This document shows positions 32,296 to 42,281 of a DNA stretch of 64,000 nt, piece by piece. A program made the position numbers and the translations under genes. Numbering within the stretch: the first letter of the stretch is position 1; each line of letters begins with the position of its first letter. The notes below the pieces were generated by a model, which saw only the letters and a program-made list of their open reading frames with translations, was not told the DNA's origin and did no database searches. The DNA lies in assembly GCF_032818155.1 (NCBI RefSeq), contig NZ_CP102589.1:1-64000 (forward strand). The letters are read 5' to 3'. The stretch is from Niallia taxi (GTDB taxonomy: Bacteria; Bacillota; Bacilli; Bacillales; Cytobacillaceae).

Positions 32296-33666
32296 TTACA
32301 CTGTTAATACCAACTGAGCTACAGCCTCAACATGCATTGTCTGCGGGAACATATCCACAGGCTGTACTTCAAGTGTTTTGTAGCCGCCGTCTTCAAGAAC
32401 GCGCAGGTCTCTTGCTAATGTTGCTGGGTTGCAGGAAACATACACGACTTTTTTTGGCTTCATGTCAATGATTGTTTGTAATAGGGCTTCATCACAGCCT
32501 TTTCTTGGCGGATCAACAACTAGAACATCTGCTGTGTTTCCTTCTTTATACCAGTTGGGGATAACTTCTTCTGCTTTACCGACAGCAAAATCCACATTGT
32601 GGATATCATTTAGGAGTGCATTTTTGCCAGCGTCTTCGATTGCTTGTGGAACAATTTCTACTCCAAACACCTTTTTTGCTTTTTTCGCGAGGAACAGAGA
32701 AATCGTGCCAATACCACAATAAGCATCAATAACGTTTTCTTCGCCTTGCAAATTAGCATACTCTAGTGCTTTATCATATAAAACCTTTGTCTGTTCTGGA
32801 TTTACTTGATAGAAAGAGCGGGCTGAAATAGCGAACTTCACATCTCCAATATAATCAGTAATTGTTTCTTGTCCCCACAATACATTTGTTATGTCGCCCA
32901 TAATGACATTTGTTTTTTTGTTATTCACATTGTGGATAATTGATTTTAAACCGGAAATCTCTGTTGCAATTTCATCCACAACTTTATTTTTGTTTGTAAT
33001 TTCGTTTGTTCTCGTAATAAGCACAATCATCATTTCACCTGTAACTAAACCACGGCGAACCATGATATGACGAAGCTCTCCTTTATGGCGCTCCTCATTG
33101 TATGCCTTTACTCCGTACTTTTGACAGATCTCTTTTACTTTTCTTACGACATCATCATTTTCTTCTTGTTGTATAAGGCAGGCTTCCATATTAATAATTT
33201 GGTGGCTGCGCTGTTGATAGAAACCTCCTATCAGACCGCCCTCCTGCTCTCCAATTGGCACCTGAGCCTTGTTGCGATAACGCCATGGCTCTTTCATTCC
33301 GATTGTCGGGTGAACTACAGCATCGATTTTTCCGATTCTTTCAAGGACATCCTGAACATGCTTATGCTTTACAAGGAGCTGACCTTCATAGTTAAGATGC
33401 TGAAGCTGACAGCCTCCGCATTCTTTATAAATTGGACATGGTGCTTCCACTCGATATGGGCTTTTTTCCTGCAATTCAAGCAAACGGCCAAACCCAAAAT
33501 TTTTATTAGTTTTCACGACTTTAACCTTCGCTTTTTCCCCTGGAAGTCCATTGGGGATAAACAGTGGATAACCTTCAACCTTCGCTACGCCAGAACCTTC
33601 ATGTGTCAAATCTTCAAATACTATATCTAATATATCGTTCTTTTGAACGGGCAATGTTCTGCTCAT
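32296..33666 (-). CDS. rlmCD: 23S rRNA (uracil-C5)-methyltransferase
   Basis: A 456-aa RumA-family enzyme. A TRAM domain at residues 1-60 binds RNA. An iron-sulfur cluster site is suggested by [15 protein letters not shown] (residues about 78-92) with a further upstream or downstream Cys. The SAM fold has [18 protein letters not shown], and the catalytic Cys lies in [15 protein letters not shown]. In B. subtilis RlmCD methylates U747 and U1939 of 23S rRNA. It lies downstream of dgkB as in B. subtilis, with an extra hairpin between. Confidence 0.92.
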
Positions 33667-33818
33667 TGTCTACTTCCTTTGCTACATGTTATCTATTTTT
33701 GAAAAGTATACCGAACAAAATTGTATCATACTTTTCCTGTTATCTATAATCCTGTTGGTTTTTTTAAAGTTTGAAAACAATGGAAATAAGGGGCTTTTTT
33801 GGGGATTTGGAGTGGTGG

Positions 33819-33844
33819 ATAGAGTGAGTCCGCACTCACTCTAT
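33819..33844 (-). other. hairpin between dgkB and rlmCD
   Basis: A perfect 11-bp stem (33819-33829 with 33834-33844, loop CCGC) lies 4 nt after the dgkB stop and has no T tract. It could protect the 3' end of dgkB mRNA, be an RNase site, or reduce read-through. Confidence 0.5.
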
Positions 33845-33848
33845 ATCT

Positions 33849-34787
33849 TTACTCTGCTGTTAGTGTCTCTTCTTTAGGGCGATCTTCATCGCGGATTTGG
33901 TCAATTGGAACAAACACCTCAAAATGTCTGTATAAATTAACAAATTCTGCTGGAAGCACCCCACCGAACTCACCATCGAGGTTCAGCTGTACCTTCTCTT
34001 CAGATGTTATCTTAATACGGTTTGCACCTACATAAATAACATTCGGATCATTAATATGCTCTCCGCGAAGCGCCAATGTGGCAATACGGATAAAGTCTGC
34101 TAGATTGGCTTTTTTTAGGATAAGCAAGGAAAATAGACCATCATTGATCGAAGCACCTGGAGCAAGCTTTTCAAATCCGCCGACAGAGTTTGTCAGACCA
34201 ATTAAAAACAGCATGACTTCCCCTTCGAATAGCTTTCCGTCATATTCTATCTTTACTTTAGTAGCTTTAATAAAAGGCAGCTTTTCCATACCTTTCAAAT
34301 AATACGCCAGCTGTCCAAGCATTGTTTTCAACTTGCTCGGCACTTCATACGAAAGCTCAGTCAAATTGCCTCCGCCGCCAATATTGATAAAGTATTTGTC
34401 TTCATTTATCCGTCCAATATCGACAGGGATTGTGTCGCCTTTAGCAATTATATCCGCGGCAGCTTCAATGTCTCGCGGGATATGCAAGGCTCTTGCGAAG
34501 TCATTAGTTGTACCCACTGGGATAATTCCAAGCTTTGGCCGGTAGTCCTGTTCTGCTAGTCCATTAACTACTTCATTAATTGTGCCGTCTCCGCCAGCTG
34601 CAACAACAAGATCATATCTTCTTTCAATTGCAATCCTCGCAGCCTTTGTGGCATCCTCTGGCCCTGTCGTAGCATGACAGGATGTTTCATACCCTGCATT
34701 CTCAAGTTTTTTCAGCACCTCCGGTAAATGCTTTTTAAAAGCTTCCCGGCCTGATGTTGGATTATATATAATTCTTGCCCTTTTCAT
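33849..34787 (-). CDS. dgkB: diacylglycerol kinase
   Basis: A 312-aa soluble lipid kinase of the DagK/YegS fold. The nucleotide motif is VVAAGGDGTINEVVNGL and the N-terminus is KRARIIYNPTSGREAFKKHL, as in B. subtilis DgkB. It recycles diacylglycerol released by lipoteichoic-acid synthesis to phosphatidic acid. The start at 34787 (MKRARI) follows AGGATG with 7-nt spacing. In B. subtilis the gene follows gatB directly; here about 6 kb of other genes separates them. Confidence 0.93.
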   Translation of the reverse strand: MKRARIIYNPTSGREAFKKHLPEVLKKLENAGYETSCHATTGPEDATKAARIAIERRYDLVVAAGGDGTINEVVNGLAEQDYRPKLGIIPVGTTNDFARALHIPRDIEAAADIIAKGDTIPVDIGRINEDKYFINIGGGGNLTELSYEVPSKLKTMLGQLAYYLKGMEKLPFIKATKVKIEYDGKLFEGEVMLFLIGLTNSVGGFEKLAPGASINDGLFSLLILKKANLADFIRIATLALRGEHINDPNVIYVGANRIKITSEEKVQLNLDGEFGGVLPAEFVNLYRHFEVFVPIDQIRDEDRPKEETLTAE

Positions 34788-34963
34788 ACCCATCATCCTA
34801 TTTCATAATTTCATGGCTTGTTTTCTATCATCTAACATCATATACGAAAACCACTTCTTTAGGCAATATTTAGTATACTACCAACTGCTTTGTAAAAAAA
34901 ATTTAGAATTCTGCTATCAATTATACCCAAATAACTAATATCCCAACCCCAATAGGCATCTAT

Positions 34964-34988
34964 AAAAATTAAACAAACGTTTGATTAA
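34964..34988 (-). terminator. palindromic terminator after the ECF module
   Basis: A 20-bp inverted repeat with one mismatch (34969-34988, core CAAACGTTTG) lies 4 nt after the stop of the toastrack gene. On the minus strand it is followed by TTTTT (34968-34964). Confidence 0.5.
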
Positions 34989-34991
34989 TAC

Positions 34992-35927
34992 TTACTTTTT
35001 ATCGTTCAGCTGTAACAGCGCACTATTAAAAACATAGATATGATGGTCGGCTTTTCCCTTTTTATAATTGCCATTATAAGTAGTATCGTCTTCTGTTGAT
35101 TCATACTCATCAGTGTCTTCCGCTTCCTTCACAAAGCTCCAATTCTGATTCTCTCCATTTTCCACCTGAGTATTCTCCACAGAAACCATTACATCGTTCG
35201 TCTCTTGTATATCTATATCAAGCTCACCAGCACCAGACACTTTCCAATCGCTTTTCAATCCGCGTGGATTAATGGATAGGTTGCTTTTAAGATTAGTAAT
35301 TTCTAATTGAACATCTGTAGGCACAAGCAAGGTAGCATCCATATTGGAATAATCAGAGTAGAACGTCGATGTTTGATACGGTCGCTCTTTCACCCTTATA
35401 TACAGTGTATCTCCTTTATGTGAAGTGGTGACATAATCCTCCAGTTTAGCTATTTTATCTAATGAACTATCCTGTCTGTATGTACCAAACAAGGAGACGT
35501 TTCTGTCATTCGTACCATCTACTTTAAGTTGCCCTATTCCGTCTCCTTCCACAACAACTCTATTGATATCATTGCTGATATTCTGTTCATATGCAGGAAG
35601 GTCCAGCGTTCTTTCTTCCTTCTTAATTTCATCCTGAATCAAGTCAATGAAGCCTGAAGTCTGAAGAAACACCATTATAATTCCGGCTGTACCCAATATG
35701 CCGACGATAAGAATACTAAATATGTCAAAATTCAGATAAGGTTTCTCCTGCTTGCTTAGAAATAGGTACAGCAGTATTTCTAAACCAAGAACTACAAGAA
35801 TAACTGGCCACCAAAGCTTTAAAGCAGTTGTAATATCCCACTCTAAAATTTGCGATAGTAACAGGAATACACCAAGAAGCAATAGTGATAATCCCATCGA
35901 AAATGTTCCTACTCTCCAAGTCCTCAT
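34992..35927 (-). CDS. membrane protein with LiaI/LiaF-like helices and toastrack-like domain
   Basis: A 311-aa protein. Three hydrophobic helices lie at about residues 8-28, 33-57 and 65-88, in a layout like the LiaF N-terminal region (MGLSLLLLGVFLLL, then LKLWWPVILVVLGLEILLY). An extracytoplasmic beta-rich domain follows (about 110-260), with repeating short strands such as NRVVVEGDGIGQLKV, TLYIRVKE, DATLLVPTDVQLEI and WKVSGAGELDIDI. This resembles the DUF4097/toastrack fold found in envelope-stress proteins. The acidic C-terminal part is unlike it. Fourth gene of the ECF sigma operon, 33 nt after the repeat protein. It may sense or buffer membrane stress; no activity can be assigned. Confidence 0.7.
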   Translation of the reverse strand: MRTWRVGTFSMGLSLLLLGVFLLLSQILEWDITTALKLWWPVILVVLGLEILLYLFLSKQEKPYLNFDIFSILIVGILGTAGIIMVFLQTSGFIDLIQDEIKKEERTLDLPAYEQNISNDINRVVVEGDGIGQLKVDGTNDRNVSLFGTYRQDSSLDKIAKLEDYVTTSHKGDTLYIRVKERPYQTSTFYSDYSNMDATLLVPTDVQLEITNLKSNLSINPRGLKSDWKVSGAGELDIDIQETNDVMVSVENTQVENGENQNWSFVKEAEDTDEYESTEDDTTYNGNYKKGKADHHIYVFNSALLQLNDKK

Positions 35928-35960
35928 TCCGTATTTCTCCTCCCTTAATTAAGACAGATT

Positions 35961-37052
35961 TTACTGTCTATTATCTGTCTTTATCTTATTCTTATTGCCA
36001 GCAAGCACTCGCAAACCGCCGAAAATAAGGACGATGCAGACAACACCTGTTTGGAAGTAATGATAGAACAAAAATTGCAAGTCAATGCCAAGTAACAGCT
36101 GCAGTCTTGTTGAAAAGACTGGAAGCAGTATATTGACTGTCATATAGTAGAAGCCCACAAGGAGAAGGCCAATTCCGACCCATTTTTGATAGTTTGTTAA
36201 ATAAGCTATCACTGGTGTATCCTCCAGCTCCGCTTCGCCTATTCTCGAAGCTTTCTGAAGTCCATCGAAAAAGCTGTAAAACCATATAATCGGTATTAAA
36301 AACAAGAAAATTCCTAAGTAAAGCTCATTGATTAAGAAGATTGCAAATAGGAAGGCAGCCATTAATTGCAGACCTCTTTGCTGCAAGCCTAAGTATAAAT
36401 GACCTGCCCCTGGAAAAATGGAAAGGAATGTGGCAATGATTTTGCTTTTTTTCCCGTCTTCTCGATTTTGTTCAAAGTCTTGGAATATGGTCTGGTCAAC
36501 AAGCTCCTCGCCATTTTGTTTTTTAACAAACTGCTGCATAACATCAAAAAATCCATATACCCAAATAACCGGAAGTATAGCCAGAAACAGCAGGAACTCT
36601 CCTGCTCCAGTTAGGAATGACACAAATAAAACCATGATAATTAACCCCAAAAAGGTGGATAACAGTGTTATACCGCGGTACATCAAGCCTAATTGTATAT
36701 GTCCTAAACCAGGGATAAAGGATAGGACTATGGTATAGAAGCGCTGTGATTCAATTGTATTTACAAGCACTGTTTTGTCTTCCTGACCACCTGGCAGTAC
36801 TTGTCTTTTAAAATACCTGCTTGTGGTTATAAAAGTATCCAGAATGCTGATGCAATAAATTAGAAGCCCTATAAAAACAAGCACGATAACAATTTCATCC
36901 ATATATCCTGACATGCTTAGCAGTAATATGGAAAATACAGCAAGTCCGAAAACGGCAGCACCGTATAAAGAGCCTCTTATCCGCTTACCGATATAAAATA
37001 ATCCACCTCCTGGAAAGAAAGCTAAAATAAATGCGACGATCGGGTTTTTCAT
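35961..37052 (-). CDS. polytopic membrane protein with three 100-residue repeats
   Basis: A 363-aa protein with about eight to ten helices; I do not recognise it. The motif F-x-P-G-x-G-x-x-x-x-G-x-x-x-R-G occurs at residues 12-27 (FFPGGGLFYIGKRIRG), 112-127 (FIPGLGHIQLGLMYRG) and 212-227 (IFPGAGHLYLGLQQRG), exactly 100 residues apart. In repeats 2 and 3, after two helices, it is followed by a W-x-Y-x-F-F-D signature (WVYGFFDVMQQF and WFYSFFDGLQKA). The motif is reminiscent of TM2-type membrane domains. Its start overlaps the anti-sigma stop by 4 nt, so it is co-translated with the sigma/anti-sigma pair. Confidence 0.75.
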   Translation of the reverse strand: MKNPIVAFILAFFPGGGLFYIGKRIRGSLYGAAVFGLAVFSILLLSMSGYMDEIVIVLVFIGLLIYCISILDTFITTSRYFKRQVLPGGQEDKTVLVNTIESQRFYTIVLSFIPGLGHIQLGLMYRGITLLSTFLGLIIMVLFVSFLTGAGEFLLFLAILPVIWVYGFFDVMQQFVKKQNGEELVDQTIFQDFEQNREDGKKSKIIATFLSIFPGAGHLYLGLQQRGLQLMAAFLFAIFLINELYLGIFLFLIPIIWFYSFFDGLQKASRIGEAELEDTPVIAYLTNYQKWVGIGLLLVGFYYMTVNILLPVFSTRLQLLLGIDLQFLFYHYFQTGVVCIVLIFGGLRVLAGNKNKIKTDNRQ

Positions 37053-37531
37053 TTTTTCTTTTCCTCCTTCGTACTTCCATCAAATGTATCGAGCCAAGAA
37101 AATGTCTTGTTAACAAAGCCTACTTTTACTTCTTCCTGTTTCATCGGCATTTCCGCCTTTTGGATGCTTTCCGTATGTTTGATAATCGATTGGAAAACAC
37201 CAGTCGACATTAGAACCAGCGTTATGCTGGCAGCAAGTGCGTAGTGAAAGACAGAGGATTGGTAAAATGATTTTTTCTTTTTCGGTTGTAAAACAGGAAT
37301 ATCTGCTGCTTCTTCCTTTTCTTCTGAAATCTTCAGCATGATTTGATCTGTAAATGCCGCCACATCTGATATGGACGGAAGCTCAACTTCTTGTACTTCA
37401 ACTGCTTGAACGTATAAATCAAGGCACTGATCACACCCATAAAGATGGTCTTCCATTTGTGTTCGTTTGCCTTCATCAAGCTCGTCCTTTGCGTATTCTA
37501 GCCATTGTTCAAAAGAATAGTGCGGTATCAT
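37049..37531 (-). CDS. zinc-type transmembrane anti-sigma factor
   Basis: A 160-aa protein. Residues 1-45 hold the ZAS/zf-HC2 motif H29-x3-C33-x2-C36 in MEDHLYGCDQCLDLY, which clamps ECF sigma factors in the cytoplasm. A single membrane helix follows near residues 92-112 (FHYALAASITLVLMSTGVF), then a short outer tail. The start at 37531 is set by GGAGGAGG just upstream and gives a 4-nt ATGA overlap with the sigma gene; the end overlaps the next gene by ATGA as well. It should hold the sigma factor inactive until an envelope signal releases it. Confidence 0.88.
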   Translation of the reverse strand: MIPHYSFEQWLEYAKDELDEGKRTQMEDHLYGCDQCLDLYVQAVEVQEVELPSISDVAAFTDQIMLKISEEKEEAADIPVLQPKKKKSFYQSSVFHYALAASITLVLMSTGVFQSIIKHTESIQKAEMPMKQEEVKVGFVNKTFSWLDTFDGSTKEEKKK

Positions 37532-38097
37532 AAGAAATCCTCCTCCTTCCAATGCTTCTTCAACCAAATCCTTGCCCGGTACAGTTTTGTTTCAATTGTC
37601 TTAACTTGAACATTTTGCTCTTCAGCTAATTGCTGGTAGCTCTTTTCTGCAATATAGTAACCGTATATAACATCGCGATAGTTGTCAGGAATATCATTAA
37701 GCTTTTCCCTTAACAGCTTGCGCTGCTGCCTTATTAAGACCTCTGCCACTACATTGTCTTTTTTCCCTGTATCAAGCTCAATTTGTTCTGTGATGTCTTC
37801 TTTCCTTCTTTGCTGTTTTCGCTTAACATCAATCGAATGATTGACTGCTATTCTCGTTATCCAAGTTTTAAACCCTTGGTTTTCGTATTTGGGGAGAGAG
37901 TAATAAATTTTGAGGAACACTTCTTGTGCAGCATCTTCCGCTTCCTTTTGATCCTTAAGAACGCTGTAAATGGTGCGAAATATGTCCTGGCGATATTTCT
38001 CAACTAGCAAGCGAAATGCATCATCATCTCCAAGCTTGACTAGTTCAATCAATTCTTGATCTGCTATTATTCTCTCCCCCCTTCTAAACAACTTCAT
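37528..38097 (-). CDS. ECF RNA polymerase sigma factor
   Basis: A protein of up to 189 aa with sigma region 2 (residues about 25-90: AFRLLVEKYRQDIFRTIYSV, then EAEDAAQEVFLKIYYSLPKY) and region 4 (125-180: DIPDNYRDVIYGYYIAEKSY, then QQLAEEQNVQVKTIETKLYR). Region 3 is absent, as in ECF factors. The start is uncertain. ATG 38097 has no nearby binding site, while a strong AAGGGGGGAG lies inside the frame at codons 5-8, just before two ATA codons; homologues usually begin near the DQELIELV segment. The downstream anti-sigma gene overlaps by 4 nt. The divergent 556-aa gene has a matching ECF promoter and is a likely target; I found no such promoter for this operon itself. Confidence 0.9.
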   Translation of the reverse strand: MKLFRRGERIIADQELIELVKLGDDDAFRLLVEKYRQDIFRTIYSVLKDQKEAEDAAQEVFLKIYYSLPKYENQGFKTWITRIAVNHSIDVKRKQQRRKEDITEQIELDTGKKDNVVAEVLIRQQRKLLREKLNDIPDNYRDVIYGYYIAEKSYQQLAEEQNVQVKTIETKLYRARIWLKKHWKEEDFL

Positions 38098-38228
38098 ATA
38101 ATAGACGTTATTAAATACTCAACCCCTACACCAATGTTTTATTTTTTTCGAATAATATTATGTTACTGAAATAAACACTTTTTTATAGTACCATTTTTCC
38201 CTGCTGTTATTAGAAGTTTTTTTAACAA

Positions 38229-38256
38229 TGAAACTATTATGGATAGTGACCGTATA
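38229..38256 (+). promoter_or_regulatory. ECF-type promoter of the divergent membrane-protein gene
   Basis: TGAAAC (38229-38234), a 16-nt spacer and CGTATA (38251-38256) match the general Bacillus ECF pattern (TGAAAC-N16-CGTA) exactly. The start codon is 39 nt downstream of the -10 with AAAAGGAGG between. Confidence 0.8.
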
Positions 38257-38294
38257 TTGATGGAGGCATTATTAAAAAGGAGGTTTTTTATTTA

Positions 38295-39965
38295 ATGGTT
38301 TATTTATTATCACTACTCGCATTGACGCTTAATCCATTCGTTTGGAAGACATATTCCCGCAGCAAAGCTTTTTTATATACACAGCTGCTTCGTGTCATGG
38401 TAGGTGCCTTCATTATATTTGTTCTAACCTATTTCCAGCTTGTTGATTATTCTGTGCAAGCTGCAATAAAGTTTGGATTATTTTATGTAGCCCTGTTCTT
38501 TCTCGGGGATCTTCTGTATAAAAAGGCAAAGGGCTTCTACTATACTAGTTACCTTGGAATAGCCATGCTTCTTGCAAGTGCTTACTTCCAGTTTGCTTAC
38601 CCATTTACTATTGCAAATGATAAGTATGACTTCGTGGCAGCAAAAGCAACGATTGCCCAAAACAAAGAAGAATCGACAGATGAGCAGCATATTGCAGTTG
38701 TACCGGAGAAATACGCTCGGTACCGAAGCGAAAAGAAACTAGGCGAGCTTTCTCATGCTTCCTACTATGATTTAGGACATTCAACTTTGCAAAAAATTGA
38801 CGATCATCTTTATTGGGTAACACCAATTGAATACACTGGCTTTTTTAAATGGATGAAGAACCAGCCTGTTCCTGGCTTCATTAAAATGAGTGCAGAGGAT
38901 GAAAATAAAGATGCAGTGTTAGTCAAATCGGAAATGACATATGTTCCATCTGCTTATTTCAACGAAGACTTAAAGCGTCTTGTAAGAAAAACGCATAAGG
39001 ATCACGTCCTGCTGGAAGCAAGCTTTGAGCCAGACGATAACGATAAGCCGTATTATGTTGTGCCATACGGGGATTACAACAAATTCAGGCAGATTGTTGA
39101 TGTAAAGGGTATTTATATTATTGATCCGGCAAATGGCGAAATTAAGGACTATAAAATGAACGAAATCCCTGATTTCATCGATCATGTTATCCCAACAAGT
39201 GTAGCAGAGGATTGGAATGAGTGGTATGGCAAATATATACACGGTTTCTGGAATACCATCTTCTCTAAGGAAGATATTAAGGTACCGACTGAATGGGAAG
39301 ATATTGATGAAGTAAATGGTGTATTCAATAAGGATCTTGCCTTAAATTGGTTTACTGATTTCACTCGACCGAACTCAGACAGCGGAAGCATGGTAGGCTA
39401 TTCACTAATCAATGCAAGATCTGGAAAGCTTACATTCTATGAAGAAGCAAATGGTTCCTTAAATGGAAAATCTGCCATTAATGTAGCTGAAAAGACATTT
39501 AGAGCGGAGAAATATGAGGCTGGCACCCCTATCCTTTATACGATATATGGTCAGTTCACATGGGTAGTTCCACTTATGGACTCTAACAGCGTGTTAAGAC
39601 AAATCGTACTTGTTAATGCGAAGGATGAGAAGATCTACAGCTACAGCAATGAAAAATCAAAGCTATTCAATGACTATAAATATGCCATTGCCACATTGTT
39701 AAAGGATGACAACACAGTTCCTAATAATATAGCAGATTTAAAGGACTTGAATGGAAAAATCAGCTATGTTTATAAATCTGAAATGGAAGGAAGCACAGTC
39801 GTCCGTTTTATGGTTGAAGGCGATAAGCGGATATTCCAAGTTTCATCTAATGACTTCCCATACAGCATCTTCCTTGATAAAGGGATGGATGTGAATGTTA
39901 AGTTTATTGATACAGAAGAAACAGTTGTTACCGTACAAGAACTTGTTATAGATGGTTTTAAATAA
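38295..39965 (+). CDS. membrane protein with large extracytoplasmic domain, function unknown
   Basis: A 556-aa protein I do not recognise. The first 110 residues hold about four hydrophobic helices (for example LLRVMVGAFIIFVLTYFQLV and FGLFYVALFFLGDLLY). The remaining 440 residues are hydrophilic and probably outside the membrane. They contain mixed alpha/beta sequence with short echoes such as TPIEYTGFFKWMKNQPVPGF and YTIYGQFTWVVPLMDSNSVL that recall PepSY-like folds, though weakly. AAAAGGAGG is 11 nt before the ATG. The gene faces away from an ECF sigma operon and has an ECF promoter, so it is probably the effector or a sensor of that system. Confidence 0.8.
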   Translation: MVYLLSLLALTLNPFVWKTYSRSKAFLYTQLLRVMVGAFIIFVLTYFQLVDYSVQAAIKFGLFYVALFFLGDLLYKKAKGFYYTSYLGIAMLLASAYFQFAYPFTIANDKYDFVAAKATIAQNKEESTDEQHIAVVPEKYARYRSEKKLGELSHASYYDLGHSTLQKIDDHLYWVTPIEYTGFFKWMKNQPVPGFIKMSAEDENKDAVLVKSEMTYVPSAYFNEDLKRLVRKTHKDHVLLEASFEPDDNDKPYYVVPYGDYNKFRQIVDVKGIYIIDPANGEIKDYKMNEIPDFIDHVIPTSVAEDWNEWYGKYIHGFWNTIFSKEDIKVPTEWEDIDEVNGVFNKDLALNWFTDFTRPNSDSGSMVGYSLINARSGKLTFYEEANGSLNGKSAINVAEKTFRAEKYEAGTPILYTIYGQFTWVVPLMDSNSVLRQIVLVNAKDEKIYSYSNEKSKLFNDYKYAIATLLKDDNTVPNNIADLKDLNGKISYVYKSEMEGSTVVRFMVEGDKRIFQVSSNDFPYSIFLDKGMDVNVKFIDTEETVVTVQELVIDGFK

Positions 39966-39973
39966 ACCTTTCA

Positions 39974-40020
39974 GCAAAGGAGCCTGCTTAACAGAACAGT
40001 GGCTCCTTTGCCTTTTTTTT
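39974..40020 (+). terminator. terminator of the 556-aa membrane-protein gene
   Basis: A perfect 11-bp GC-rich stem (39974-39984 with 40001-40011) is followed by eight T (40013-40020). Confidence 0.9.
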
Positions 40021-40114
40021 AAAGCTTGGCATTAAGGAACAAGTATACTTTTCGGCTTGCATATACTAACATAGAAACTGGGAATATTTATCATAATGTA
40101 AAAGGAGAATGCTT

Positions 40115-40729
40115 TTGTATACGCTATTGATCGCTTCTTATTTATTGGGATCTATTCCAGCTGCCATTATAATTGGAAAGATTTTTTTTGGCATTGATAT
40201 TAGAAAGCATGGCAGCTTAAATCCTGGAGCAACTAACTCGATTCGCGTGCTTGGCAAAAAGGCAGGTCTTGCCGTTCTCATCTTTGATATCGGCAAAGGC
40301 TCGCTCGCTGCAGCGCTCCCGCTCCTTCTTCACCAGGATATCGATCCAATTTATACTGGTTTGGCTGCAGTTATTGGACATTGTTTTCCAATATTCGCAG
40401 GCTTTCGCGGTGGAAAAGCGATCGCAACAACTGCAGGGATGCTGATTGTCGCAAACCCGATTATGTTTTTAATTGTCTATTTAACATTTATAGCTGTCAT
40501 TTGGATTACAAAGTATGTGTTCTTTGGAAGTATTTCTGTCGGGGTTACGATATTGCTCTATGTCTTTTTTGATGCGAGTGTAGAACACGAACTTATTTTT
40601 ATCATCTATCTGTTACTTCTCATTTACTTACACAGGTCTAACATCATTAATTTCATTAACCAGCAAGAACCAAAAATAAATGATAAAACAATTAAAAAGG
40701 ATCGCATCGGACCGAAGAAAATCAGCTAA
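40115..40729 (+). CDS. plsY: glycerol-3-phosphate acyltransferase PlsY
   Basis: A polytopic membrane enzyme of 204 aa that moves an acyl group from acyl-phosphate to glycerol-3-phosphate, the first step of phospholipid synthesis. Signature motifs are GSLNPGATNSIR and GHCFPIFAGFRGGKAIATTAG. I choose TTG 40115, 7 nt after AAAGGAG; the ATG at 40109 is only 1 nt from that site. The C-terminal 25 residues are hydrophilic and lysine-rich, longer than in short PlsY proteins. The motif reads SLNPGATN where most PlsY have SGNPGATN. Bacillus usually has plsY elsewhere, so this may be an extra copy. Confidence 0.85.
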   Translation: MYTLLIASYLLGSIPAAIIIGKIFFGIDIRKHGSLNPGATNSIRVLGKKAGLAVLIFDIGKGSLAAALPLLLHQDIDPIYTGLAAVIGHCFPIFAGFRGGKAIATTAGMLIVANPIMFLIVYLTFIAVIWITKYVFFGSISVGVTILLYVFFDASVEHELIFIIYLLLLIYLHRSNIINFINQQEPKINDKTIKKDRIGPKKIS

Positions 40730-40818
40730 AATCCTAATTCGGACAAGCTTCGCAAAAACAAAATCGAAAATTGGATATTGGCGCCTTTTCCTGGGAAATA
40801 GTGCGGGAAAATGTCGAA

Positions 40819-40851
40819 AAAAAACCAAGAGAGCTAATCTCTTGGTTTTTT
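40819..40851. terminator. bidirectional terminator between plsY and gatB
   Basis: A perfect 14-bp stem (40819-40832 with 40838-40851, loop GCTAA) has A and T runs in its outer arms, stopping both converging genes. Confidence 0.85.
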
Positions 40852-40853
40852 CA

Positions 40854-42281
40854 TTATCTTTTATTTATCTCTTCAACAAGAAGTTTGTTAACCAATTGTG
40901 GGTTAGCTTGTCCTTTTGTTGCTTTCATAATTTGACCAACAAGGAAGCCGACTGCTTTTTGTTTACCATTCTTGAAATCATCGATAGATTGAGGATTATT
41001 ATCCAGTACTTCAGAGATAATTTTCAGCAATGCGCCTTCATCTGAGATTTGTACTAATCCTTTTTCTTTAACGATTTTTTCTGCGTCACCGCCATTTTCA
41101 ATCAGCTCTTTAAATACTTGTTTGGCAATTTTGCTGGAAATTGTGCCGTTTTCAATCAGCTTAATCATGCTTGCAAGACCTTCTGGAGTCAGTGCAACCT
41201 CTGAAAGCTCTTTACCTTCAGCATTCAAAGTTGCTGATAAATCGCCCATTACCCAGTTAGAAGCAAGCTTAGGGTCAGCCTTAGCATTAACTGTTGCTTC
41301 AAAGAAATCTGCCATTTCCTTCGTAACAGTCAATACATTTGCATCATATTCAGGCAAACCTAATTCTTCTATATATCTCTTTTTGCGGGCATCAGGAAGC
41401 TCTGGAATTTCGGCACGAATTCTTGCCTTCCAATCCTCATCGATATACAGGTCCATTAAATCAGGCTCTGGGAAATAACGATAATCATCAGAACCCTCCT
41501 TAACACGCATCAACAATGTTTTACTCGTTGCTTCGTCAAAACGGCGTGTTTCCTGATCAATCACACCTCCGCCAAGCACAACCTCACGCTGACGCTTCTC
41601 TTCGTATTCAAGACCTTTGCGGACGAAGTTAAATGAGTTTAAGTTCTTCAATTCTGTTTTTGTTCCGAACTCTTCCTGTCCTACTGGACGGATGGAGATG
41701 TTCGCATCACAGCGTAAAGAACCTTCCTCCATTTTACAGTCAGATACACCAGTATACTGAATGATAGATTTCAGCTTCTCAAGGTATGCGTATGCTTCAT
41801 TAGGTGTTCTAATATCCGGCTCAGATACAATCTCAATCAATGGTGTTCCTTGACGGTTAAAGTCAACTAATGAGTAGCCATTGCCATGGTTCAGCTTTCC
41901 AGCATCCTCTTCTAAATGGACACGAGTGATTCCGATTCTCTTCTTATAACCGTCCACTTCAATATCAATATAGCCGTGCTCTCCGATTGGTTTATCAAAT
42001 TGAGAAATTTGATATGCTTTCGGATTGTCAGGATAGAAGTAGTTTTTTCGGTCAAATTTCGTTTCTGTCGCAACTTGACAATTCAATGCCATAGAAGCCT
42101 TCATTCCGTATTCTACAGCCTTTTTATTTAGGACAGGCAATACTCCTGGATATCCTAAATCTACAACTGTTGTATTTGTATTCGGAGCAGCACCGAAATG
42201 GTTCGGGCTTGCGGAGAATATCTTCGATTCTGTTTTTAACTCCACATGGACTTCAAGTCCAATGACTGTTTCAAATTCCAT
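40854..42281 (-). CDS. gatB: aspartyl/glutamyl-tRNA amidotransferase subunit B
   Basis: A 475-aa subunit that phosphorylates Glu or Asp on mischarged tRNA before amidation. The GatB N-terminus [13 protein letters not shown] pattern is present ([20 protein letters not shown]), with the conserved [14 protein letters not shown] and [10 protein letters not shown] segments. The C-terminal GatB_Yqey helical domain ends the protein. Third gene of gatCAB, 12 nt after gatA. Confidence 0.95.

Follow-up and report, generated by a model that had tools for sequence, protein, structure and literature searches.

A conserved four-gene ECF sigma operon with TM2-repeat and toastrack proteins: a candidate envelope-homeostasis system in Niallia and its relatives

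The 64,000-nt stretch of DNA analyzed here (the window), from a Niallia very close to N. taxi, harbors a coupled operon of four genes that encode, in order, an ECF sigma factor, a zinc anti-sigma factor, a polytopic protein with three TM2-like repeats and a toastrack protein (Table 1). We propose that these genes probably constitute a self-contained ECF system for envelope homeostasis, comparable to SigM-YhdL-YhdK and built from different parts. The operon, its gene linkage, its promoter, the pattern of sigma start codons and the genes behind the promoter are read directly from the sequence; the binding, sensing and regulatory steps we infer as follows. The zinc anti-sigma would hold the sigma factor at the membrane, and the TM2-triplet and toastrack proteins would most likely monitor the condition of the membrane or of the lipid carrier and set sigma release. 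The freed sigma would read promoters of the form GTGTAGGG-N16/17-CGTC, including that of its own operon, giving positive feedback. In many relatives it would also drive genes of lipoteichoic acid synthesis and undecaprenyl-diphosphate recycling, with glycolipid/phospholipid handling, carboxypeptidase trimming and a second ECF sigma (SIG2) as further predicted targets. Because the sigma gene would start at a weak codon (AUA in the window) preceded by a strong Shine-Dalgarno (SD) sequence, the sigma would stay scarce relative to the coupled, usually AUG-started anti-sigma, and the feedback loop would thereby be restrained. No description of the four-gene system was found in the searchable literature, and its own promoter, the weak sigma start codons and the recurrence of the promoter before envelope genes appear, from the sequence comparisons, to be new.

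Table 1. Features of the operon and its surroundings, in window coordinates
Feature	Position	Strand	Remarks
dgkB (diacylglycerol kinase)	33849..34796	-	next gene downstream of the toastrack gene; not claimed as part of the system
Toastrack gene	34992..35927	-	311 aa; N-terminal membrane helices resembling LiaF, C-terminal toastrack domain
Triple TM2-like polytopic repeat protein gene	35961..37052	-	363 aa; invariant columns of 21 sequences
Zinc anti-sigma gene	37049..37531	-	160 aa; HxxxCxxC, one hydrophobic stretch with a short tail behind; ATGA overlap with the sigma gene
ECF sigma gene	37528..38067	-	Pfam and start-codon comparison; probable start ATA 38067-38065
SD of the sigma gene	38074..38085	-	strong, AGAAGGGGGGAG; from the sequence
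Operon promoter	38100..38131	-	-35 GTGTAGGGG (38131-38123), -10 CGTCTAT (38107-38101)
Promoter of the 556-aa gene	38229..38254	+	TGAAAC-N16-CGTA; other type than the operon promoter
556-aa membrane protein gene, divergent	38295..39965	+	outside the system

A sequence-only reading of this DNA had described five open reading frames, two ATGA overlaps and a 33-nt gap, all of which are present, and had combined them into a five-gene envelope-stress module inserted between gatB and dgkB. What stands of that proposal is an ECF system with repeat and toastrack proteins and a lipid/teichoic link, supported by conserved linkage and the predicted regulon; the fifth gene and the insertion do not. We drew on 410 stretches of a named genome collection that encode a relative of the repeat protein and checked the operon in the best 80 of the 410 (the named loci). 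In these loci the interval between gatB and dgkB is a usual home of the operon and thus no odd place of insertion. The sigma and anti-sigma genes lie beside the TM2 gene in 79 of 80 named loci, the remaining one being a contig edge, and in all 29 further loci opened, so the repeat protein is not found widely without the sigma pair. The toastrack gene is present in 77/80 and dgkB in 76/80, and the overlaps are likewise retained, between sigma and anti-sigma in 70/79 and between anti-sigma and repeat gene in 56/79 named loci. Apart from the window, 38 of 150 genomes encode a toastrack relative, 37 of them beside a TM2 match (six of these of a short TM2 type); a single genome, G004, has the toastrack protein without a TM2 neighbour. 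Of 397 genomes sampled from the order, 88 encode the full-length repeat protein. The compared genomes are related and hence not independent. Downstream, dgkB follows the toastrack gene after 70-372 nt in 60 of the 70 named loci for which this gap was determined, and no terminator-like site is listed on the minus strand between 34992 and 34796 in the window; read-through from the operon into dgkB is possible.

The divergent 556-aa gene was considered as a member of the system and rejected. It does carry the ECF promoter ascribed to it, which we take to be SigW-like, and TGAAAC-type promoters precede 27 of 35 loci homologous to it, as against about 1% of random stretches. This promoter is nevertheless of a different class from that of the operon, and the gene adjoins the operon in just 6/80 named loci, the six Niallia-type ones. 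The protein is common elsewhere and occurs without the system: among 150 genomes it is found in 52, of which 11 encode a full-length repeat protein, compared with 13.9 expected by chance. A module of five genes is thus highly improbable.

The sigma factor is recognized by the Pfam models Sigma70_r2 (1.9e-17) and r4_2 (1.4e-8), and scores below the curated cut-offs of the SigM models TIGR02950 (87.5 of 147.95 bits) and NF007226 (76.1 of 199 bits). Its best model, NF007224/PRK09642, also remains under its curated cut-off (164.6 of 212 bits) and matches from residue 33 of the sigma open reading frame onward; it looks as if it had been built on N-terminally truncated annotations. Zinc anti-sigma factors are defined by an H-x3-C-x2-C motif, which is present in 79/79 anti-sigmas of the named loci. 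The window anti-sigma matches zf-HC2 and anti-sigma models weakly, in every case under the cut-off, and its assignment is based on the motif and the place of the gene.

The repeat protein is built with a period of exactly 100 residues (PGxG motifs at 14, 114 and 214), its repeats sharing 14-18 of 99 residues with one another. At E<=1, 21 of 21 members match DUF6677 and 9 of 21 match TM2 (PF05154), the best at 8e-4, while the window protein itself has no TM2 match; on this evidence we regard it as a remote DUF6677/TM2 relative. The earlier statement that the repeat and 556-aa proteins belong to no known family holds at Pfam/NCBIfam cut-offs. The toastrack protein likewise falls just under its family cut-off (LiaF-TM, PF22570, 25.3 of 27 bits) and has the fold exemplified in a discussion of toastrack proteins by 4QRK/4OPW (PMC11237479). 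Roles for both proteins are suggested by architecture alone. The anti-sigma tail beyond the membrane stretch has 39-49 residues, too short for much of a sensor, and the TM2-triplet and toastrack proteins are therefore the most likely sensors. An alternative reading, which we rate at somewhat under even, makes them effectors, i.e., membrane stabilizers of the PSP/Lia kind, rather than sensors or co-anti-sigmas: both are encoded in a seemingly autoregulated operon, and toastrack proteins are described as recurring in PSP/Lia-type stress operons (PMC11237479). The gene overlaps with the anti-sigma and the short anti-sigma tail fit a signaling complex equally well or better. Sensor and effector roles can both be true.

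A pattern search recovers the GTGTAGGG-N16/17-CGTC promoter at the head of the operon in 74 of 79 named loci, the other five having one-base variants recognized by eye; the -10 element is CGTC, or CGTT in 3/79 (by eye). A canonical TGWAAC...CG promoter was found in 0/79 named loci. By a looser pattern the promoter is found in 29 of 40 further genomes with a full-length repeat gene, 11 having no match. Across the 397 genomes there are 55 matches to the motif and one to the reversed-pattern control, and 40 of the 55 precede the repeat gene by 1.02-1.23 kb. Of the 88 genomes that have the repeat gene, 40 contain the motif, vs. 2 of the 309 that lack the gene (p 8e-28, not corrected for descent). 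Within the window's family the matches number 148 (control, 7), in 67 of the 72 genomes that have the repeat gene vs. 8 of the 79 that do not; six of these eight carry only unassigned sites, and five family genomes that have the repeat gene lack the motif. The element thus seems to be the promoter of this sigma, which would imply positive autoregulation of the operon. The -35 element of the named loci lacks the usual AAC, an ECF hallmark that was derived from an early, small subset (PMC8103513), and in four loci (L055, L072, L078 and L108) the copy that matches does not adjoin the SD but is found some 100-190 nt upstream, L108 having a close variant copy as well; both features would suit a binding site for some other regulator. 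We consider this very unlikely given the correct -10 CGT(C), the fixed spacing of 16-17, the usual place just before the SD and the association with the operon. AAC in the -35 and CGT in the -10 are typical of ECF promoters, AAC not being defining.

The putative start codon of the sigma gene is weak in the named loci. In all 79 of these the proposed starts are ATT (53), TTG (16), ATA (6), ATC (2) and GTG (2), with no ATG; in 56 further orthologues they are ATT (22), TTG (17), GTG (8), ATA (8) and ATG (1). With 2-13 nt allowed in the search, 6-10 nt separate a strong SD run from the proposed start in 79/79 named loci, and 61 of the 79 combine a strong SD with AUU, AUA or AUC in silico. The window gene itself probably starts at the ATA at 38067, and annotation probably often assigns this sigma the wrong start. 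The open reading frame list placed the start of the anti-sigma at a TTG (37567) and that of the sigma at an in-frame ATG (38097), which lies about where transcription of the sigma gene should start. That translation begins at such an ordinary codon, either an upstream ATG/GTG close to where transcription begins or a GTG/TTG inside the gene, seems improbable to us: an in-frame ATG, GTG or TTG between promoter and proposed start is available in 24 of the 61 loci with an isoleucine codon, but 37 have none there (16 of them with an in-frame stop), in 13 the whole stretch as far as the conserved AFR motif is free of ordinary starts, in the near relative L033 two stops closely follow the position of the window's ATG, and the strong SD is placed for the weak codon in every named locus. 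More tentatively, and with less than even confidence, the weak start may be a conserved regulatory element. Discrimination by IF3 would limit sigma translation, envelope repair would be gated by both translation state and membrane stress, and a ratio of sigma below anti-sigma would make a positive-feedback ECF loop safe.

The promoter motif recurs before genes for LtaS-family, UppP, PAP2, carboxypeptidase, VanZ-like and ABC-transporter proteins, as well as before glycolipid-synthase/DedA/patatin genes and the second sigma genes. Among the target names LtaS, undecaprenyl-diphosphatase (PAP2), UptA, LolD and UppP, only UppP passes its NCBIfam cut-off, the others scoring below. Predicted targets differ by clade, and nearly all motif-bearing target sites are in genomes that have the operon (second sigma, 38/38; ABC, 15/15; UppP, 3/3; DUF7408, 9/10). 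Within the genome of the window, only the operon and the second sigma gene carry the strict motif, and looser scans fall below control (5 vs. 13; with spacing 17 only, 2 vs. 9). Of 103 fetched family sites, 39 have the motif before SIG2, as do the window's genome and G167, so SIG2 could autoregulate through it. Sites outside the operon might accordingly be read by SIG2 or by both sigmas, and the envelope regulon be that of SIG2 or of the pair. We find this unlikely, yet less so than the alternatives on promoter and start codon. Many of the order's families have the motif in front of the operon, and within the window's family, the scope of the SIG2 search, 30 of the 79 members without the operon were tested and just one proved to encode SIG2 (E<=1e-30); this lone copy has no strict upstream motif, a diverged form ending in CGTCTAA remaining.

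Our preferred reading, a four-gene envelope-homeostasis system, is best set beside SigM with YhdL-YhdK of Bacillus subtilis, which also pairs an ECF sigma with a membrane anti-sigma complex and has targets of the kind predicted here: SigM is described as controlling ltaSa (PMC8144471), bcrC together with other sigmas (PMC5723303) and undecaprenyl phosphate use (PMC11081497). The window sigma differs in falling under the SigM model cut-offs and in its -35, its TM2-triplet/toastrack partners and its weak start codon. LiaF/VraT-type systems (PSP/Lia) share the toastrack domain behind LiaF-like helices and the context of membrane stress (PMC11237479). Here, in contrast, the output is an ECF sigma, and neither a two-component system nor PspA was seen among the window's open reading frames of 33000-42000; an operonically linked sigma factor is mentioned in the same source in the context of DUF2089 (PMC11237479). 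Gene order and domains are shared by shorter sigma/anti-sigma/TM2/toastrack operons from other genomes of the order (L255-L259), whose promoters are of the same kind (TG(C/A)AGGG-N16-CGTC, 5/5). Their sigmas are only 33-36% identical and start with ATG in four (two by eye) and GTG in one, and their TM2 proteins have 158-199 aa. For the start codon, the counterparts are cvfC1, ccpN and infC of Staphylococcus aureus, AUU/AUA-started genes with strong extended SDs conserved across species (PMC13009471), where near-cognate starts lower reporter yield (PMC13009471). Unlike those genes, none of which is a sigma factor among those named in the available text (PMC13009471), the start here drifts among weak codons yet avoids ATG. 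If the proposed mechanism is true, the system would offer a natural example of feedback braked through a weakened start codon. To our knowledge, B. subtilis lacks this four-gene system, whereas many Bacillus relatives carry it. It would represent an envelope-stress system akin to SigM that does not follow the B. subtilis paradigm, offering a readable promoter, a predicted regulon centered on lipoteichoic acid and undecaprenyl recycling, and two membrane proteins beside the anti-sigma.

The four-gene operon of the ECF sigma factor, the zinc anti-sigma factor, the triple-TM2 repeat protein (363 aa) and the toastrack protein (311 aa) is real and conserved across relatives. ORF and sequence inspection found the five ORFs at 34992–39965 as the sequence-only reading had placed them, and its coupled arrangement of four genes was confirmed, with ATGA overlaps joining sigma to anti-sigma and anti-sigma to repeat gene and 33 nt separating the repeat gene from the toastrack gene. 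Among the five ORFs the sigma factor alone had firm Pfam support (Sigma70_r2, 1.9e-17); the other four were below the cut-off or had no match among the Pfam and NCBIfam models. The repeat protein, matched at 100% at N. taxi locus L032, is encoded by 88 of the 397 genomes sampled from the order, and sigma and anti-sigma precede its gene at all 29 other loci opened. We also compared an 80-locus set, the best 80 of 410 stretches encoding a relative of the repeat protein, with 8-kb flanks of which some end at contig ends. Seventy-nine of these loci have sigma and anti-sigma, the one exception, L084, lying at the edge of a contig. Of the other genes, that for the toastrack protein is present at 77 loci, dgkB at 76, plsY at 59 and gatB at 47. 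The two ATGA overlaps are retained in 70/79 (sigma/anti-sigma) and 56/79 (anti-sigma/repeat protein).

Features of the operon region in the window
Feature	Position	Strand	Remark
Sigma, anti-sigma, 363-aa polytopic protein and 311-aa protein genes	within 34992–39965	-	tight series
556-aa protein gene	38295–39965	+	opposite to the operon
Promoter of the 556-aa gene	38229–38254		
Palindrome-like ATTAAACAAACGTTTGATTAAT	~34966–34987		between toastrack gene and dgkB

To our knowledge, B. subtilis is without this operon, which had been read as an insertion between gatB and dgkB. Because the operon is conserved across loci, that reading gives way: the gatB–dgkB site is common among relatives, and a loss in B. 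subtilis is as likely. Genome G058 (L247) keeps the promoter ~300 nt before dgkB with the repeat gene absent, a possible scar of such a loss. L061 and L104, both from Oceanobacillus, have the operon downstream of dgkB instead; in G138 (L010) the toastrack gene has apparently shrunk to a short frame, the other three genes being present. A record titled Bacillus subtilis strain DE0224 (L108) carries the operon at ~52% identity, and this genome is probably mislabelled.

The operon appears to have a promoter of its own type. A canonical ECF promoter upstream of sigma was found at none of 79 loci of the 80-locus set, and TGTAG[GT]G-N16/17-CGTC was found there by pattern in 74 (spacing 17 in 65 and 16 in 9; commonest form GTGTAGGGG...CGTCTATTA), the remaining five being one-base variants by eye. 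At L055, L072, L078 and L108 the matched copy lies ~100–190 nt upstream, not adjoining the Shine-Dalgarno sequence. Among 40 more distant sampled genomes with a full-length repeat gene, a similar upstream pattern was found in 29 and not in 11. Five short-type operons with a shorter TM2 protein (L255–L259), apparently an older or parallel version, all have TGCAGGG or TGAAGGG-N16-CGTC ahead of sigma, so the AGGG-type -35 seems, on these sequences, to belong to the whole operon class. According to excerpts of a review, the hallmarks of ECF promoters include a -35 containing AAC and a -10 containing CGT (PMC8103513); against these, the operon promoter's -10 fits whereas its -35 does not.

The divergent 556-aa gene, proposed as the fifth member of the module, does not belong to it. 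It occurs in only 6/80 loci, all of Niallia type, and its relatives, found in 52/150 genomes, coincide with a full-length repeat protein in 11 versus 13.9 expected. The ECF-type promoter ascribed to it holds up: TGAAAC-N16/17-CGTA, which we take to be SigW-like, stands upstream of its relatives in 27/35 loci versus ~1% of random stretches. From this promoter alone we infer that it is a separate envelope-stress gene. The protein was rightly described as lacking a known family, as no Pfam or NCBIfam model matched; the family is widespread, its members having N-terminal helices and, behind them, a region that closes with an OB-fold-like domain.

Translation of sigma appears unusual as well. In the 79 loci a strong Shine-Dalgarno sequence (AGAAAGGGGGGAGAG type) is followed 6–10 nt on by a proposed start codon that is ATT in 53, TTG in 16, ATA in 6, ATC in 2, GTG in 2 and ATG in none, although the script could also select ATG or CTG. 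In 56 further orthologous loci (62 loci less L252, which is the second sigma, and the five operons of the short type) the codons were ATT 22, TTG 17, GTG 8, ATA 8 and ATG 1. Between promoter and proposed codon, 37 of the 61 Ile-codon loci have no in-frame ATG, GTG or TTG, 16 of these with a stop, and 13 of the 61 have none as far as the conserved AFR motif. In the window, alignment places the start at the ATA codon at 38067; an ATG at 38097 lies about at the expected transcription start, where the near relative L033 has stops. Because ATG is avoided though one step from ATT and ATA, the start codon, drifting among weak codons, looks like the product of selection for weak initiation. Conserved AUU/AUA starts with strong extended Shine-Dalgarno sequences and reduced yield are described, in the excerpted source, for S. 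aureus cvfC1, ccpN and infC (PMC13009471).

The strict motif GTGTAGGG-N16/17-CGTYTATW had 55 matches in the 397 genomes versus 1 for the reversed pattern. Forty, in 39 genomes, sit 1.02–1.23 kb before the repeat gene, and the motif occurs in 40/88 genomes with this gene versus 2/309 others (Fisher p 8e-28; the genomes are related, and descent is uncorrected). Thirteen of the 15 other matches fall in operon-bearing genomes. They precede LtaS-family genes (G231, G036); D,D-carboxypeptidase genes (G318, unlinked; G188 and G377, directly before sigma; G338, assigned by identity to the site of L080 rather than from its own reading); a glycolipid synthase gene with DedA and patatin genes (G338, G396, G377, G188); a second ECF sigma gene (G167 and the window's genome, G000); and a membrane protein gene of no assigned family (G073). 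The last two lie at dgkB (G058) and at nothing clear (G251). With one representative per target class, MGDG_synth (7.6e-32), VTT (7.7e-14), Patatin (3.8e-30) and Peptidase_S11 (3.4e-48) were above the Pfam cut-offs; the LtaS-family target matched NF053595 at E 4e-224, yet scored 745.8 bits where the cut-off is 970. Eight Lederbergia-like loci of the 80-locus set have an additional motif ~1 kb before sigma, followed in seven by a carboxypeptidase-type YPASTTK frame (L080 and L103 read fully); none was seen after it at L101.

In 151 genomes of the window's family there were 148 motif matches versus 7 for the control, with all 13 Niallia genomes matched, the window's included; the motif is present in 67/72 genomes that carry the repeat gene and in 8/79 that lack it. 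Of 144 sites classified, 41 identical to sites of the 80-locus set were taken as operon promoters and the other 103 were retrieved and inspected. Of these, 39 belong to the second ECF sigma (38 identified by comparison and L318 on reading), 22 to the operon itself, 15 to an ABC ATPase followed by a permease-like gene, 10 to the DUF7408-like protein, 3 to UppP/BacA, 2 to a PAP2 phosphatase, 2 to a VanZ-like protein, 1 to a DedA-like protein and 1 to a polysaccharide deacetylase; 8 are unassigned. For one representative each, UppP was above its NCBIfam cut-off and PAP2, VanZ, VTT and ABC_tran above Pfam's, the finer names undecaprenyl-diphosphatase (PAP2), UptA and LolD falling below theirs. Operon-bearing genomes hold 38/38 second-sigma sites, all ABC, UppP, PAP2, VanZ-like and DedA sites and 9/10 DUF7408 sites; operon-less genomes supply six of the eight unassigned sites and the deacetylase site. 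The DUF7408-like protein (~780 aa; L186, L187 and the ten family sites, e.g., L376) is a recurrent candidate target, probably secreted or membrane-bound. Predicted target sets vary by clade, and the window's genome has only two strict sites. Its second sigma (L252) has the operon's promoter type at G000:C1:3799898-3799929, with no obvious anti-sigma beside it by eye. Among 30 of the 79 operon-less family members searched, one has the second sigma (E<=1e-30), and the strict motif is absent there. The second sigma may have a share in reading the motif sites.

The gene dgkB recycles diacylglycerol left by LTA synthesis. Because the predicted targets resemble those of B. subtilis SigM, dgkB is often the next gene after the operon and no terminator-like site is listed between the two in the window, the system probably senses membrane or lipid-carrier disturbance through both polytopic proteins, and its response would be envelope repair. 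According to excerpts of the respective sources, SigM activates ltaSa and is induced by loss of ltaS in B. subtilis (PMC8144471), controls bcrC together with other sigmas (PMC5723303) and responds to undecaprenyl phosphate (PMC11081497). Since the window's sigma falls below the SigM models, we do not claim that it is SigM; by analogy, it would work like SigM.
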